This document shows, in pieces, positions 4,814 through 57,015 of a stretch of 64,000 bases of DNA; the first letter of the stretch is position 1, and every line of letters starts with the position of its first letter. Origin of the DNA: an uncultured Deferribacteraceae bacterium. GTDB taxonomy: Bacteria; Chrysiogenota; Deferribacteres; CAMZNJ01. The notes under the pieces are model-generated. The model made no database searches and was not told the origin of the DNA. It saw nothing but the letters and a program-made list of their open reading frames with translations. The position numbers and the translations under genes were made by a program. Where the stretch lies: assembly GCA_947313855.1 (NCBI GenBank), contig CAMZNS010000004.1, positions 1-64,000 of the forward strand. Direction: 5' to 3'.

Positions 4814-7564
4814 TTATTTCTGGTTATTGTTAATAATTTTTTGGATAGTTTGTAGGGCTGTTAATGCTTCTACGGGTGTTGTGTTGTTCATATCCATGTT
4901 TTGGATATGCGTTTTGATACTCAGGTATTTCGCATATTCTTTTTCGTTTTGCCTATCTACAGTTAGAGTATCGAGTTGCTTATTTGTTCCAATACTTTTT
5001 TCAGGGAATAGTATTATGCCTTGGTAAGGGATGTTGTTTGCCAAGTCGCTGTTATCGTCAGGGTTTTCGTTTTGTTGTTGGGTAAGTTTTTTGGTATTGA
5101 GGTTATTTTCCAGTATTTCCATGATATTGTTGGCTCTTTGTATGAGTTTTGTTGGCATTCCAGCCATTTGAGCCACATGTACGCCGTAACTTTTGTTTGC
5201 GACGCCGTCTTTGATTTGTCGTAGGAATATGATACTACCATTGTTTTCACTTATTTGCATGCTCATATTTGTTACAGCGTTGTATGATTCTTCGAGTATT
5301 GCGAGTTCGTGGTAGTGCGTTGCGAACAGTGTTTTTGCGTGTATGTTGTTGATGATGTGTTCGACGACGGCAAAAGCTATTGCGACACCGTCGTAGGTTG
5401 AAGTTCCTCGTCCTACTTCGTCGAGTATGATTAGTGAGTTTTGTGTTGCGTTGTTGATGATGTTTGCGGTTTCGATCATTTCGACCATGAATGTTGATTC
5501 GCCTAGGGCGAGGTTGTCGTTTGCTCCCACTCGTGTGAAGATTTGATCCATGATGGGTATAATTGCTTTGTCGGCTGGTACGAATATGCCCATGTGCGCC
5601 ATGATGGTGATGAGAGCGACTTGTCGTATGTAAGTACTTTTGCCGGCCATGTTTGGTCCGGTGATGAGCAGTATTTGTCGTTGTGTTTGGTTGAGCAGTG
5701 TGGAGTTTGGTACGAATTCTTTGTCTTGCGTTTCGTTGAGTACTTTTTCGACAATACAGTGTCGTCCCCCTTGTATTTCGAGGTTTTGGTTGTGTTCGAT
5801 ATGTGGTCTTGTGTGGTTGTATTTTGTTGCGACGTGTGCCATTGCTGTTGCGAAGTCTAGTTGTGCGATTAGTGATGCTATTTGTAGTATGTTGTTTCGT
5901 TGAGCGTTGCATGTTTCGCGAATGAGTAGGAATTCTTGGTATTCCATGTTGTGTAGAGAGTCTGTTCCGCCGAGAATCTCTTCTTCGATTTTTTTCAGGT
6001 TTTGGTTGATAAATCGTTCAGCATTGACGAGTGATTGTTTGCGTTCGTAGTTGTCGGGTATTTTTTTGGAGTGTGTTTTGCTAACTTCGAAGTAGTAGCC
6101 GAAGACTTTGTTGTAGCCGATTTTGAGGTTGTGTATCCCTGTGTGTAGTCGTGCTTCTGTTTCGGCGTTGTCGAGTTTTTGTTGTAGCGAGTCGTAGGCT
6201 ATTTTGAGTGTGTCGATTTCGTTGTTGTGTCCGATTTTGATGAGTCCCCCTTCGGTGATATTTGTGGGTGGGGGATCGATGATGCTGTTTTCGAGTGTTT
6301 CGGCGAGTTGGATGAGTGTTTCGGCATCTTGGAGCATATTTGCGATGAATTGGTTGTTTTGTGTTTGTAGAATACTGTGTAGTATTTGTATGTTGTGTAG
6401 TGATGTTTTGAGTGTGATGAGGTCTTTGGGTGTTGCTTTTGTGTTAGCGAGTCGAGCGGCAATTCGTTCGAGGTCGTAGATTTCGTTTAGGACAGAGCGT
6501 ACCGATTCGTTGAGGTCCCATGCGTTGAAGAAGTGTTCGATTAGGTCGAGTCGAGCGTTGATTTCGTTTTTGTTGCGTGAGGGGTGTATGAGTCGGTTTT
6601 TGAGTAGTCGTTTGCCCATGGGAGTTTGGCAGTGGTTGAGGGTGCTGAAGAGGGTATTTTTTTGTGAGCCGTCTAGTGCTGTAACGAGTTCGAGGTTTCG
6701 GTATGCGGATGGATCGAGGGTGAGTGTTTGTTGTGGTAGTAGTAGTGTTGGTGTGTTGAATATGGGTTCGAGTATGACATCTTGCATGTAGTCGAGTAGT
6801 TGTGAGAATGCGAGTAGGTATTCGGTGTTGTCTAGTCCGAACCCTTTTTCGTTGTTGACGTTGTAGTAGTTGAGGAACCTTGTTCGTAGGTAGTGTGGGT
6901 CCACTTTTTTGGTCATGAGTTTGAAGGGTGTGTTGCGAACTAGGCATGATTCGTGGTTGGCGATGACCTCTTTGGCGTTCCATTTTTGTACAATTTCGGT
7001 GAGTACTTTTTGTATGTTAGCTGGTGAGTTTGTTTCGGTTGAGCAGGGTAGTTTTTGGAAGAACAGTTCGCCGGTGGCAATATCGGCGATGGCACAGTGG
7101 ACGAACCCTTTTGTTAGTGCGGCGGATATGAGGAAGTTGTTGTCGAATTCGTGTAGTGATTCGTCTTCCATGATGGTTCCGGGGGTGACAACGCGTGTTA
7201 CGCCTCGTTTTACGAGTGTTGTGGTTTTTTCCCTGAGGGATGGGTCTTCGAGTTGGTCGCAAATGGCAACTTTTTCGCCGTGTTTGAGCAGTATGGGCAC
7301 GTATTTGTGGTAAGCGTGGTGTGGGATGCCACACATGGGGATTTCGTTGGGAGTGCCCTTTTGTCTTGCGGTGAGTGTGAGTCCGAGTATTTTGGATGCA
7401 CGTACAGCGTCGTCGCCAAACATTTCGTAGAAGTCGCCCATGCGAAAAAACAGTATGGAGTCGCCATGGGTTTGTTTTATTTCGTAAAACTGTTTCATCA
7501 TGGGTGTGTTGGGTGTGTTGGGTGTGTTTTGGCTAATTTTTGTGGACACTGCTTTAACCTCCAA
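4814..7564 (-). CDS. mutS: DNA mismatch repair ATPase MutS
   Basis: A 916-residue MutS, slightly longer than usual. The mismatch-probing F-Y-E is at residues 45-47 in GDFYEMF, preceded by a short N-terminal extension with NTPNTPNTP, encoded by three 9-bp repeats (7501-7530). The ATPase Walker A GPNMAGKST lies near residue 635, with the Walker B/signature region around LDEVGRGTSTYDG. The C-terminal region carries the helix-turn-helix dimer segment and an Asn/Gln-rich tail. The protein recognises mispairs and small loops. Replication slippage repair depends on it, which matters in a chromosome so rich in short tandem repeats; the gene appears intact. Confidence 0.97.
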   Translation of the reverse strand: MEVKAVSTKISQNTPNTPNTPMMKQFYEIKQTHGDSILFFRMGDFYEMFGDDAVRASKILGLTLTARQKGTPNEIPMCGIPHHAYHKYVPILLKHGEKVAICDQLEDPSLREKTTTLVKRGVTRVVTPGTIMEDESLHEFDNNFLISAALTKGFVHCAIADIATGELFFQKLPCSTETNSPANIQKVLTEIVQKWNAKEVIANHESCLVRNTPFKLMTKKVDPHYLRTRFLNYYNVNNEKGFGLDNTEYLLAFSQLLDYMQDVILEPIFNTPTLLLPQQTLTLDPSAYRNLELVTALDGSQKNTLFSTLNHCQTPMGKRLLKNRLIHPSRNKNEINARLDLIEHFFNAWDLNESVRSVLNEIYDLERIAARLANTKATPKDLITLKTSLHNIQILHSILQTQNNQFIANMLQDAETLIQLAETLENSIIDPPPTNITEGGLIKIGHNNEIDTLKIAYDSLQQKLDNAETEARLHTGIHNLKIGYNKVFGYYFEVSKTHSKKIPDNYERKQSLVNAERFINQNLKKIEEEILGGTDSLHNMEYQEFLLIRETCNAQRNNILQIASLIAQLDFATAMAHVATKYNHTRPHIEHNQNLEIQGGRHCIVEKVLNETQDKEFVPNSTLLNQTQRQILLITGPNMAGKSTYIRQVALITIMAHMGIFVPADKAIIPIMDQIFTRVGANDNLALGESTFMVEMIETANIINNATQNSLIILDEVGRGTSTYDGVAIAFAVVEHIINNIHAKTLFATHYHELAILEESYNAVTNMSMQISENNGSIIFLRQIKDGVANKSYGVHVAQMAGMPTKLIQRANNIMEILENNLNTKKLTQQQNENPDDNSDLANNIPYQGIILFPEKSIGTNKQLDTLTVDRQNEKEYAKYLSIKTHIQNMDMNNTTPVEALTALQTIQKIINNNQK

Positions 7565-23164: not shown

Positions 23165-24286
23165 GTGAGCATGGGTATGGATAGCAACGTTTTGCTAGAA
23201 CTAAATGGCGTGGACTACAGCTACCACACAGACAAAAGTGGCAACTCCAAAGTGCTAGACAGTATCTCCATGACTATCCTCAAAGGGGACATGGTTGCCC
23301 TCGTTGGACCAAACGGCGGTGGCAAAACCACCCTAGTCAAAATTATCCTCGGAATACTCAATCCGCAAAAAGGCTCCATTGCAGTCAACATGGACAGGAA
23401 AAAGATAAGCTACGTACCGCAGTACTTCTACAGCGGACGCGACTACCCCCTAAGTGCCATGCAAGCAGTACTCATGGGCATGGGGAAGGGGCACAGAATC
23501 TACACAAGGGCAAACAAAACCCAAGCCATGGAGGTTCTCGCCAAGTTCGGCGTCGACCATGTGGCAAACAGACGGGTGGGAACACTCTCCCCAGGGCAAC
23601 TGCAGAAGGTTATCATCGCCCGAGCGGTCATGAACAAACCGGAACTCATCGTTATGGACGAACCCCTCTCCGGCATCGACGAAAGTGGTCAAGGGGAGAT
23701 TTACGCACATCTGGACACACTCAACAGGGAGGGCACAGCCATTGTTGCCGTAACTCACGACCTGTACGCTGTACCAAAATATTTTCAGACAATTGCGTGT
23801 ATCAAAAAAACACTGCACTTCCATGGTCATAGTAGCAATATGGATGAAGTTGCGAAAGTCATCTACGGAAGCACGGGCACAAGTACCACGGGCACAAGTA
23901 CCACGGGCATATCTACCGATTATCAGCGTTTGGTTCATGTTCATAGTAGCGGTTTGCCTGTGAGGGTTTTGGACTGCCACGAGTGTCGCCACAATCAAAG
24001 TCGTAGTCAAAGTCGTAGCCAAAATCGTCAGGGTGATGCTGGCGACACGTCCCCCTCTGCCCATACGGCACGTGGTCATGACCGCGTGCACGACCATGAC
24101 CACGTGCATGACCGCGTGCACGACCATGACCACGTGCATGACCGCGTGCACGACCGCCACGACCGCGTGCACGACCACGACCGCGTGCACGACCACGACC
24201 ATGACCGCGTGCACGACCGCCATGACCGCGTGCACGACCATGACCACGTGCATGACCGCGTGCACGACCGCCATCCCCATGATTAG
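23165..24286 (+). CDS. znuC: Zinc ABC transporter ATPase with a long His/Asp repeat tail (ZnuC-like)
   Basis: A 373-residue protein from the GTG at 23165 (ATGs at 23171 and 23177 are equally possible; GGTGAG is best spaced for 23177). Residues 1 to about 240 form an ABC ATPase: Walker A GPNGGGKTT (48-56), signature TLSPGQLQK, Walker B VMDEPLSG and the switch His in AVTHD. After a Thr/Gly repeat (three 15-bp units near 23877) come about 75 residues of HDRVHDHDHV-type repeats, with around 30 histidines, ending in HPHD. Usual ZnuC proteins are about 250 residues without this. The tail likely binds zinc in the cytoplasm, as buffer or sensor (inference). Confidence 0.88.
   Translation: MSMGMDSNVLLELNGVDYSYHTDKSGNSKVLDSISMTILKGDMVALVGPNGGGKTTLVKIILGILNPQKGSIAVNMDRKKISYVPQYFYSGRDYPLSAMQAVLMGMGKGHRIYTRANKTQAMEVLAKFGVDHVANRRVGTLSPGQLQKVIIARAVMNKPELIVMDEPLSGIDESGQGEIYAHLDTLNREGTAIVAVTHDLYAVPKYFQTIACIKKTLHFHGHSSNMDEVAKVIYGSTGTSTTGTSTTGISTDYQRLVHVHSSGLPVRVLDCHECRHNQSRSQSRSQNRQGDAGDTSPSAHTARGHDRVHDHDHVHDRVHDHDHVHDRVHDRHDRVHDHDRVHDHDHDRVHDRHDRVHDHDHVHDRVHDRHPHD
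24072..24281 (+). repeat. In-frame tandem repeat encoding the ZnuC His/Asp tail
   Basis: Units of CACGACCATGACCACGTG and CATGACCGCGTG alternate with GACCGCCACGACC-type variants; all are multiples of three bases, so the frame is kept. The array ends six bases before the stop. Fourteen bases, GCACGACCGCCATC, are shared with the noncoding array at 61262-61376. Confidence 0.9.
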
Positions 24287-53052: not shown

Positions 53053-54876
53053 TTGAAGTTTGTATTGCAACAAATAAATATGCAAATCATGACCATGGTT
53101 GCCCTGATTACAATGGGTACCATCACCCTTGCCCTTATCCCGACGAACTCAGCATTCGCCAACACCGCCTCCACTGCCAAATACTACTCCATCTTGGGCG
53201 ACCTCAGAGACAACAAAAATGCCATGCGTAAGCAGTACACAACCTTCGCAACAGAAGTATGTAAAAAATACTCCGATAACCCCCAAAGTGATGACGCACC
53301 CGACTACATCTTCGCCTGTGCAACCATCTACTGGGACTCATACATGCGGTATGCAGTCAAATCCGACATGGACAACGCACTGAGATACTACCGACTAGTA
53401 GCAACCAACTACGAAACCGACCTCGCAGCAAGGGGCTACCTCGAAACATCAGCCATCTACGAACTCCAAGAAGACTACTCATCCGCCCTCTACAACTACA
53501 ATCGCGTCTTAACACGATTCGCTGGCTCACCATACGCTGACGAAGCCCTGAAAAAGATCGACTCCCTAACCAAAAAATTCGGCGGAACACCACTACCAAA
53601 AGAAACAGCAACACAAAACCAAAACGATAAGGGCATAAACAGAGGGGTAATCGACGAAATACTACAACCGGTCGCAAATACCGCAACAAGCAACGGCGAG
53701 CCCCTTGGCGACGCAAGCTTCGGACTGGTAATCCCCGCCAACAGCAACACGCAAGCACAAGAAGACAACCTTGCCCATGGATTCGAACTACTGAAATCGT
53801 TCCGACACTACTCGGGCAAAAACTACACACGCCTCGTCATCGACCTCTCCGACGCCGTGGACTACACCTTCAAAGACCTTCCACCAGACCCCAAATTCAA
53901 CCGCTCCGCACGCATCTTCATCGACCTCAAAAACACAACAGTCAACAAAGATATCCCCACAACAGTCAACGTCAACGACTCGCACCTACAACAGATACGT
54001 TGGGCAGTAAATCGCCCTGGAGTTGTACGTGTTGTACTCGGACTAGACAAACCCACCGGGTACAAGGTGTTTGAACTGAGCTCACCACACCGAATTGTTG
54101 TGGATATCTCCGACGACGCACCTCTGCGTGCAACACTGGGCGGAAGCACAACCCTGGTGTCAAAAGATGTGGACATCGAAACACTAGCACAAGTCATCGG
54201 CGTTAAAATTCGCAATGTTGTGGTGGACCCCGGTCATGGTGGCAAAGATCCCGGTGCCATCTATTACGGGCTCAAAGAGAAAGATATCGTCCTAGATATC
54301 AGCAAAAGACTCGCCAAAAGACTCGCAACCAACAAAGACCTGAGCGTATACCTAACACGTAGCTCAAATAAATTCATAGAACTCGACGAACGAACAGCCT
54401 TTGCAAACAAACGTCATGCCGACCTATTCCTCTCCGTGCATGCCAATGCACACACCAATCCCAACCTCTACGGTGTCATGACATTCGTGCTAAACATTAC
54501 AAAAGACAAAACATCGCTGGATATTGCCGCATTCGAAAACCAAGCAACAACCAAAGCCATGAGCGACCTGCAGGGGATAATGTACGATATTATTCTGGGC
54601 TCAAAACTCGAAGAATCATTGCTGTTGGCAAACTATGTGCAAAAAGGTATCCTTGGGGAGCTCAAATTAGGGCGTTCATACGACAAAGGGGTGCGACAGG
54701 CACCATTCTACGTACTTGTAGGGGCACGTATGCCATCCATACTCATCGAAACAGGGTTCCTGTCAAACAAAAACGACGCCTCAAGATTTAAAAGTTCTCG
54801 AAACTTGGACAAGTATGCCGACGGCATCAGTAAAGGGGTATTCCAATACATCGAAAACTATAACGGTAAAAAATAA
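53053..54876 (+). CDS. amiC: N-acetylmuramoyl-L-alanine amidase with AMIN domain (AmiC type)
   Basis: A 607-residue exported protein. A signal peptide ends near SAFA/NT (about 36). Residues about 40-175 are TPR-like helices (DMDNALRYYRLVATNYE, SALYNYNRVLTRF). An AMIN domain spans about 255-370 (RLVIDLSDAVDYTF, HRIVVDISDDAP). The zinc amidase domain starts at VVVDPGHGGKDPGA (about 388), with EKDIVLDIS, SVHANAH and IETGFLSN giving the His/Glu ligands and catalytic Glu. It cleaves the stem peptide from MurNAc during cell separation. The TTG start is the longest; ATG at 53080 or 53089 also leaves a usable signal peptide. Confidence 0.92.
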   Translation: MKFVLQQINMQIMTMVALITMGTITLALIPTNSAFANTASTAKYYSILGDLRDNKNAMRKQYTTFATEVCKKYSDNPQSDDAPDYIFACATIYWDSYMRYAVKSDMDNALRYYRLVATNYETDLAARGYLETSAIYELQEDYSSALYNYNRVLTRFAGSPYADEALKKIDSLTKKFGGTPLPKETATQNQNDKGINRGVIDEILQPVANTATSNGEPLGDASFGLVIPANSNTQAQEDNLAHGFELLKSFRHYSGKNYTRLVIDLSDAVDYTFKDLPPDPKFNRSARIFIDLKNTTVNKDIPTTVNVNDSHLQQIRWAVNRPGVVRVVLGLDKPTGYKVFELSSPHRIVVDISDDAPLRATLGGSTTLVSKDVDIETLAQVIGVKIRNVVVDPGHGGKDPGAIYYGLKEKDIVLDISKRLAKRLATNKDLSVYLTRSSNKFIELDERTAFANKRHADLFLSVHANAHTNPNLYGVMTFVLNITKDKTSLDIAAFENQATTKAMSDLQGIMYDIILGSKLEESLLLANYVQKGILGELKLGRSYDKGVRQAPFYVLVGARMPSILIETGFLSNKNDASRFKSSRNLDKYADGISKGVFQYIENYNGKK

Positions 54877-54927
54877 ACATACGAATAACAATGCCCCCCG
54901 TTGTGTTTGTGTTAGGAGTTGCTTCGA

Positions 54928-57015
54928 ATGGCTGGTGTAAATAGTGGTGCTCGTGGTGCTGAAGACGGGCGTGCTCATGGTGCTGAAGACGGGCGTGCTC
55001 GTGGTGCTCATGGTGCTGAAGACGGGCGTGCTCATGGTGCTCATGGTGCTGAAGACGGGCGTGCCCGTGGTGCTGAAGACGGGCGTGCTCGTGGTGCTGA
55101 AGACGGGCGTGCTCGTGGTGCTCATGGTGCTCATGGTGCTGAAGACGGGCGTGCTCGTGGTGCTCATGGTGCTGAAGACGGGCGTGCTCGTGGTGCTCGT
55201 GGTGCTCATGGTGCTGAAGACGGGCGTGCTCGTGGTGCTCATGGTGCTGAAGACGGGCGTGCTCATGGTGCTGAAGACGGGCGTGCCCGTGGCTCCCGTG
55301 GCGGCAGAAAAATACTCACAATGAACATAACAAGCAGACGTGTGGGGGTAGTGGCTCTAATCTTGGCGGGGGTATTCGCTGGGTTAGGCACCCCCGGCAT
55401 CTCGCCAACACCTTACTTCGCCTTCGTGGCATTCATACCCATGTTTTGGGTGTGGGACAATGTTCGATCCCATTCAACCTTTACCAAGGGGTATATTTTT
55501 GGGTTCGCCTACTTCTTTGTTAACTCCATATGGCTCTACAACACGGCTTACCAATACGGATTGCCCGCCATCGTTGGTCTTGTGGTGTATGTTGTTCTTT
55601 TCGGCTTAGCATTTTATTACGCATTGATAGCGTTGTTCTATTCTCGCGTCAAATCCCCCCTACTGGTGGGTAGTTTCGTCGGTGGCGTGGAGCTCCTCAA
55701 GGGGGTTCTCCTAACCGGTTACCCGTTCGGCAACGTGGGGGTCATGCTCCATGGTGAGCTGGCACTTATTCAGGGTGCATCCTTTTACGGTGAGATAGGG
55801 CTTTCGGTTCTGGTGATAACGGTCAGTCTTGGTGTTTACCGTGCCATTATGTATTCGCGTCGTAACCTTGTCTATGTTGCTTTGGGGCTTGCGGGGTTGC
55901 TGTTGCCTAACCTTTATTATGCTCCGTACGAGTATGGTTCCGGTGGGGAGAGTGGTGCGTCACAGTTGCATACGGATCTGCCAAGCTATCGCGAAGGGTA
56001 TTCGTGGTCTGGTGCTAGTGCCGACGGTGTTGCCGGCGGTGTTGCCGGCGGTGTTGTTGACGGTGTTGTTGACGGTGAATATTCCGTTTTACTCGTGCAG
56101 ACTGGTCTCGATCAGCGATACAAGTGGAGCGTTCGACGTCATGTGGAGGTGATGTCGTACGTTGGTGATGTTATTCGTGAGGCGGCTCGCATCGCGTCTG
56201 AGACTAACCCCGATATCGTTGTTTTCCCGGAATCGGTGTACCCCCAAAACATGAATGGTGTAGGGGAGATTGAGGTGCTCTTGAACACCTACTTCCCCAC
56301 AACGCCAGTACTCATCGGCGTAATCTACAATCGTCTTGCCAACGGCTCTGTGACCGATCTATCCTCCAACGCTACAGCACGATCTTACTTCAAGCGAAGG
56401 GTTGCGGTGAAAAGTTTTACGTCGGTTTATGCCCATCGCAGTGTTTACGAGAAGTACACCTTGTACGACAAAAATAGACTTGTTTTGTTGGGTGAATACC
56501 TCCCTTTGTACTCGTTGTTAAAGCCTGTTTACAACCTGTTTTATGGGTTTGAATCTGGGGAGGGGTATTCGTCGGGGGAGCAGATAGGTGCAATTAGCGT
56601 GGCGAATAAGTTCCGCATCTTGCCCCTTTTGTGCATGGAGGCGTCGTTTAGTAGTGCTGTTACCCGCTACCAGCCGGATAGTTTCAACGTAATCGCCATT
56701 ATGGGTAACGACGATTGGTTCAAGTCTGATCGTGCCAAGGAGCAACACCTTGCCATGCATACCATGCGTGCTGTTGAGTCTCGTAAGTATGTTTTGCGTT
56801 CGGGTCAAACAGGTATCACCACAGTGATTGAGCCTAGTGGGGCGTATGAGAATAGTGAGGCGGATGGTGTGGCATTTATGCTTCAGAGTTTTCAGACAAG
56901 TGAGTCGATACCCCTGTTTGCGAGAATACATTATTGGTGGCTAGCTTTGCCGTTATTTTTGGGTATGTTTCTTTGGGTAAGACGTTTCGTTTTAAAAAAG
57001 GTGTTTACAAACTGA
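54928..57015 (+). CDS. lnt: Apolipoprotein N-acyltransferase with N-terminal repeat extension
   Basis: 695 residues if translated from the ATG at 54928, which has AGGAG about 9 bases upstream. The first about 131 residues are a GAEDGRAR-type repeat; the conserved Lnt begins at the ATG at 55321, which has no clear ribosome site. The membrane part has about six helices (ISPTPYFAFVAFIPMFWVWD onward), then a nitrilase-fold domain with FPESVYP (Glu), DKNRLVLLGEYLP (Lys) and LLCMEASF (Cys) as triad. It adds the third acyl chain to lipoproteins in the inner membrane. A GVAGGVAGGVVDGVVDG repeat lies in the periplasmic domain (56026-56080). Confidence 0.9.
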   Translation: MAGVNSGARGAEDGRAHGAEDGRARGAHGAEDGRAHGAHGAEDGRARGAEDGRARGAEDGRARGAHGAHGAEDGRARGAHGAEDGRARGARGAHGAEDGRARGAHGAEDGRAHGAEDGRARGSRGGRKILTMNITSRRVGVVALILAGVFAGLGTPGISPTPYFAFVAFIPMFWVWDNVRSHSTFTKGYIFGFAYFFVNSIWLYNTAYQYGLPAIVGLVVYVVLFGLAFYYALIALFYSRVKSPLLVGSFVGGVELLKGVLLTGYPFGNVGVMLHGELALIQGASFYGEIGLSVLVITVSLGVYRAIMYSRRNLVYVALGLAGLLLPNLYYAPYEYGSGGESGASQLHTDLPSYREGYSWSGASADGVAGGVAGGVVDGVVDGEYSVLLVQTGLDQRYKWSVRRHVEVMSYVGDVIREAARIASETNPDIVVFPESVYPQNMNGVGEIEVLLNTYFPTTPVLIGVIYNRLANGSVTDLSSNATARSYFKRRVAVKSFTSVYAHRSVYEKYTLYDKNRLVLLGEYLPLYSLLKPVYNLFYGFESGEGYSSGEQIGAISVANKFRILPLLCMEASFSSAVTRYQPDSFNVIAIMGNDDWFKSDRAKEQHLAMHTMRAVESRKYVLRSGQTGITTVIEPSGAYENSEADGVAFMLQSFQTSESIPLFARIHYWWLALPLFLGMFLWVRRFVLKKVFTN
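54943..55300 (+). repeat. 24-bp/9-bp in-frame tandem repeat at the lnt 5' end
   Basis: Eleven copies of GGTGCTGAAGACGGGCGTGC plus four bases, interspersed with nine-base GGTGCTCAT or GGTGCTCGT units. All units are multiples of three, so the frame from 54928 stays open across about 360 bases. Copies are nearly identical, which points to recent or continuing expansion. Confidence 0.93.

Follow-up and report, generated by a model that had tools for sequence, protein, structure and literature searches.

An in-frame tandem array ahead of the Lnt core in a Deferribacteres genome, probably a tolerated N-terminal tail

The gene for the apolipoprotein N-acyltransferase Lnt carries, ahead of its conserved core, an in-frame tandem array that we take, with a probability of roughly 0.78, to be a tolerated N-terminal tail of the enzyme, a repeat expansion filtered by the reading frame and not a switch. 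Lnt is not alone in this: its array is one instance of a pattern seen across the genome. The relevant features of the window (the whole stretch of 64,000 nucleotides that was analysed) are the following:

53053..54876, + strand, upstream AmiC-type amidase gene
54913..54918, + strand, Shine-Dalgarno (SD) sequence TAGGAG, 9 nt ahead of ATG 54928
54928..54945, + strand, first residues MAGVNS, including the start codon
54946..55290, + strand, in-frame tandem array, 345 nt, 115 residues
55291..55320, + strand, junction GSRGGRKILT from the array to the Lnt core
55321..57012, + strand, Lnt core (apolipoprotein N-acyltransferase), matching TIGR00546, PF20154, PF00795 and PDB 5n6h
56019..56077, + strand, second, internal in-frame Lnt array, ADGVAGGVAGGVVDGVVDG, directly ahead of the nitrilase domain

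The first-pass annotation had described a repeat of 131 residues before the first helix of Lnt (54928-55320), and this is indeed what is found: the frame that opens at ATG 54928 is free of stops over residues 1-131 and runs into Lnt. Its count of eleven GAEDGRAR-type units also holds, since 54946-55290 can be tiled exactly by eleven 24-nt units, GAEDGRA(R/H), plus nine 9-nt modules, GA(R/H). Three 64-kb first-order Markov sequences built from the window gave 0 arrays each with the detection settings unchanged, so that a chance origin is excluded. A second forward frame across the array is also nearly stop-free, and for this reason the openness of the frame says little by itself.

The start region is more telling. 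Pairing with the anti-SD reaches -7.2 kcal/mol at 54928 (AGGAG core at 54914-54918) versus -2.8 kcal/mol at 55321, a value at background level given the median of -2.9 kcal/mol over all ATGs. These energies agree with the earlier claim that the only good ribosome site precedes ATG 54928 and that 55321 has none; between these two positions no further start occurs in frame. The distance from the amidase stop is 51 nt to ATG 54928 and 444 nt to ATG 55321. The genus-level comparison rests on two genomes, the focal one and its sister (CAMZNJ01, M_SnakePit_MAG_00002), recovered from midgut of the vent shrimp species Rimicaris exoculata; the study that described it proposed the name Candidatus Rimicarispirillum nautilei (PMC9636832). 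Judging by size, G+C and identity, the focal genome plausibly represents another species of the genus Candidatus Rimicarispirillum, a member of the Deferribacteres that lives as a symbiont in vent-shrimp guts. The Lnt proteins of the two are 92% identical. The sister (L002) conserves the TAGGAG, the distance of 9 nt and the ATG at the same place, 55 nt beyond the amidase gene; its protein begins with MADMNR, the ATG is followed by MADMNRRARTRGARDGVNSGRNTLLVDITSKR, and the frame continues without a stop into the shared core. It has no array, the extension ahead of that core having 25 residues versus 131, and the codon that matches the M of 55321 is GTG (V), without a ribosome site. Since the sister keeps the signals of 54928 and has no ATG at 55321, translation of Lnt from ATG 54928 is very likely on sequence grounds, which favours the translated tail that the first-pass annotation had proposed. 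The prediction that a change in copy number would vary protein length without breaking the frame is likewise consistent with module lengths that are all divisible by three and with the 131 and 25 residues of the two species.

The same annotation had left open that the array might instead be a 5' leader that is not translated, with Lnt starting at the ancestral ATG 55321. An ATG does exist at this position, and Lnt in other families, including other Deferribacteres, begins at or near it, so that a start there would not be absurd. Furthermore, arrays are denser between genes, where they make up 25% of the intergenic bases of the 42 kb that are fully syntenic between the two species, versus 2.6% of the coding bases. 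We nevertheless consider the leader unlikely, because it would span 444 nt where gaps are short, it would leave Lnt with a start at background pairing energy, and its module lengths respect the reading frame; what the sister conserves is the upstream SD and ATG and not the ATG of 55321. The same position of the start in other families makes the extension a derived trait of this lineage. A coupled leader peptide, which would deliver ribosomes to the start at 55321, could be drawn from an ORF at 54944-55324 that ends in an ATGA overlapping ATG 55321. We find this highly improbable, since its GTG start would lie just downstream of a strong SD-ATG pair that belongs to a different frame, no separate SD was seen for it, and both the array frame and the ATGA overlap are missing from the sister. 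A hairpin or riboswitch was rejected, since RNA folding at the start and across the array was no stronger than in shuffled sequences.

By its sequence the gene product is an apolipoprotein N-acyltransferase, with lipoprotein N-acylation as its putative activity. TIGR00546 is matched with 157.4 bits against a curated cut-off of 132.9, and the N-terminal membrane domain (PF20154) and the nitrilase domain (PF00795) are both above their curated cut-offs. In an alignment of 16 rows, E435, K515 and C569 (long-form numbering) are invariant at the positions expected for the Glu-Lys-Cys triad, K and C by alignment with 5n6h and E by its conserved PES motif. The protein thus shares with the E. coli-type Lnt (PDB 5n6h) the membrane domain, the nitrilase domain and the invariant triad positions, and differs from it by the repeat tail at the N-terminus and by an internal repeat loop. 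AlphaFold2, run with the 16-row alignment, keeps the pLDDT under 50 for residues 1-132 and predicts no secondary structure in them; in long-form numbering, the first helix spans residues 137-153. The tail is accordingly predicted to be disordered. It is nearly uncharged (net charge +2) and should lie on the cytoplasmic side, ahead of the first transmembrane helix, because of the known topology of Lnt. A second stretch predicted as disordered, residues 337-381, is overlapped by the internal array at 56019-56077, the length of which differs in the sister. The tail apparently leaves the Lnt core intact and the enzyme undisturbed, and would be neutral; a core envelope enzyme has been hit by repeat expansion and seems unbroken.

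Repeat tracts are known to generate differences in length, and in some surface proteins repeat tails have a role. A selected function, with the tail either serving as a binding region or adjusting the level or activity of Lnt through its variable length, could be supported by this capacity and by the near-uniform units of the array. However, a recent expansion would also give uniform units, the sister species manages without the array, the tail is predicted to be disordered and comparable arrays are found in many unrelated genes; in addition, with units divisible by three a change in copy number cannot turn the frame off. A selected tail therefore seems quite unlikely to us. If translated, as its conserved start suggests, the array with its stop-free 24- and 9-nt modules is an in-frame coding minisatellite. 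It does not have the form of a contingency locus subject to phase variation, every module length being divisible by three, and no evidence was found of regulation or switching by the Lnt array.

A tolerated tail of this kind probably grew in place. The Lnt unit has no other copy in either genome with up to 3 mismatches, which makes local expansion likelier than a mobile element, and a single mobile repeat spreading through the two genomes was rejected on the same count. Weaker similarity, 67-71%, was found to two arrays of the sister genome, both in G/C-rich repeats that belong to genes other than lnt. Before the two species split, their common ancestor would have gained the upstream start and a short Lnt extension, and GGTGCTCGT and GGTGCTGAAGACGGGCGTGCTCGT modules would then have multiplied in the focal species by slippage or unequal recombination. 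Alternatively, an older array may have been lost in the sister. With the array present in one species and absent in the other (one genome per species), and with a genus known from two genomes, birth in the focal species and loss in the sister both fit. A single-unit precursor in the sister extension (GARDG versus GAEDG) was discarded, as equally good scores came from 26 of 2000 shuffled sequences and from 132 of 3744 pieces of the genome. A phage origin was also set aside: its single match was to an unannotated record and fell inside the enzyme rather than the array.

The source genome is a draft of 1.34 Mb in 49 contigs, 90.7% complete and probably assembled from a metagenome, and tandem repeats are known sites of misassembly (PMC6868369). 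Both facts could point to an assembly artefact or to a wrong copy number. Against this, the longest exact internal repeat of the Lnt array is 71 nt, which is less than the read length of 150 nt in the sister-genome study (PMC9636832), the mosaic of R/H variants is unlike a simple collapse, and the repeat habit is common to two genomes that were assembled separately. We regard such an error as very unlikely; that the array itself is an artefact is unlikely, and its exact copy number may be off.

Arrays were called with Tandem Repeats Finder on sampled sequence, using identical settings across genomes. Array density is 48 and 53 per 100 kb in the two species, which corresponds to 4.6 and 4.4% of the bases; one relative, sampled over 400 kb, has 1.7 per 100 kb, and the 760 kb pooled from nine genomes of the eight other families have 5.1 per 100 kb. 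The interruptions of synteny between the two species coincide with array positions. In the regions present in both species the period was divisible by three in 44 of the 46 arrays in conserved frames versus 18 of the 42 intergenic ones (one-sided Fisher p = 2.6e-8), a test that is partly circular since the counted frames had to be open. The fully syntenic 42 kb gave 12 of 12 coding and 3 of 10 intergenic arrays with such a period. At least one array was found there in 9 of 32 genes, Lnt having two. Intergenic sequence amounts to 2868 of the 41847 bp of this stretch (coding density 93%), so the intergenic regions are not expanded in the manner of repeat-rich symbionts that lack dnaQ. Arrays across the genome would arise by the same process as the one in Lnt, and those within genes would persist mainly if unit and net length keep the frame and the insert sits in a tail or loop.

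Neither genome (90.7% and 86% complete) yielded a DEDDh exonuclease of the PF00929 family, which includes DnaQ. Of the 38 other genomes of the class that were searched, 33 have this family and five do not. Array density in the class members that lack it is 17-31 per 100 kb, less marked than in the focal pair, and the most similar genus with PF00929 has 15-20 per 100 kb; the correlation involves few independent losses, and the genomes are incomplete and differ in G+C. A contribution of lost DnaQ-type proofreading to array growth is plausible, and we offer it as a lead. Loss of mismatch repair was rejected as the cause, mutS and mutL being present, and so was a lack of SbcD or RecG, both of which are present. 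Besides the focal pair, genus g12 and genome G028 lack PF00929, and both are moderately repeat-rich.

Rickettsia palindromic elements, reportedly described by Ogata and colleagues in 2000, are said to be inserted in frame in protein genes. The arrays resemble them as in-frame additions to unrelated housekeeping genes that are tolerated at protein surfaces, but the Rickettsia elements are interspersed and related, whereas here every locus has its own tandem unit. Loss of dnaQ accompanies repeats and genome instability in Candidatus Portiera of the whiteflies Bemisia and Singhiella (PMC7821994), a repeat-rich symbiont without the proofreading subunit, as the focal bacterium appears to be; Portiera BeTa has 111 tandem repeats. 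The repeats of Portiera go with expanded intergenic regions and coding densities of 60-70% (PMC7821994), whereas the focal bacterium has mutS and mutL, a larger genome and frequent arrays within genes. Ehrlichia ruminantium (Collins et al. 2005, cited in PMC10710844), also a small host-associated bacterium, likewise has many tandem repeats, the copy number of which varies as they expand and contract. PMC10710844 describes the process in Ehrlichia as targeting noncoding regions, with a coding density of about 64%; here, on the contrary, arrays also occur in about a quarter of the sampled conserved genes, at the 93% coding density of the syntenic 42 kb.

Taken more broadly, Candidatus Rimicarispirillum might be in a runaway minisatellite regime tied to the DnaQ-type loss, with disordered in-frame inserts in a large share of its housekeeping proteins, a proposal that we put forward tentatively and at somewhat less than even odds. 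If true, the inserts would be lineage-specific, with Lnt and DNA-repair proteins among their carriers, and would form a bacterial counterpart of the low-complexity inserts in Plasmodium proteins, and the two sister species would allow the birth and turnover of inserts to be traced gene by gene. A whole genome is in any case available where repeat growth within and between genes can be watched, selection on the reading frame can be measured from coding versus intergenic unit lengths, and the joint absence of the exonuclease makes a link between proofreading loss and tandem repeats testable beyond insect endosymbionts. Annotating the start of Lnt at the familiar residue would hide such tails.

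Repeats were also noted at other places. The MutS gene (window 4814-7564, minus strand) contains short repeat tracts, and the MutS, MutL, RecG, Mfd and SbcD frames are longer in both species than in the relatives searched; the matched parts of SbcD are wider apart in the focal genome than in the sister, as with a larger in-frame insert. A CinA-type protein of the sister (L038 655-2619, minus strand) has several separate in-frame inserts (TGTSTTGTS..., DGVGDGVG... and DAGAGAGAD...), and a glycine-rich GGAGGAHGA repeat frame (sister L037 1335-1734) lies right after a fumarase-type gene, near the contig end. The highest share among the sampled genomes was that of G031 (L139, L140), with 13% of a 40-kb sample in tandem arrays. 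Within the window, an ABC transporter ATPase ends in a C-terminal HDRVHDHDHV His/Asp repeat (24077-24273), which might bind metal; the sister protein has 307 residues versus 373 and is without this repeat.
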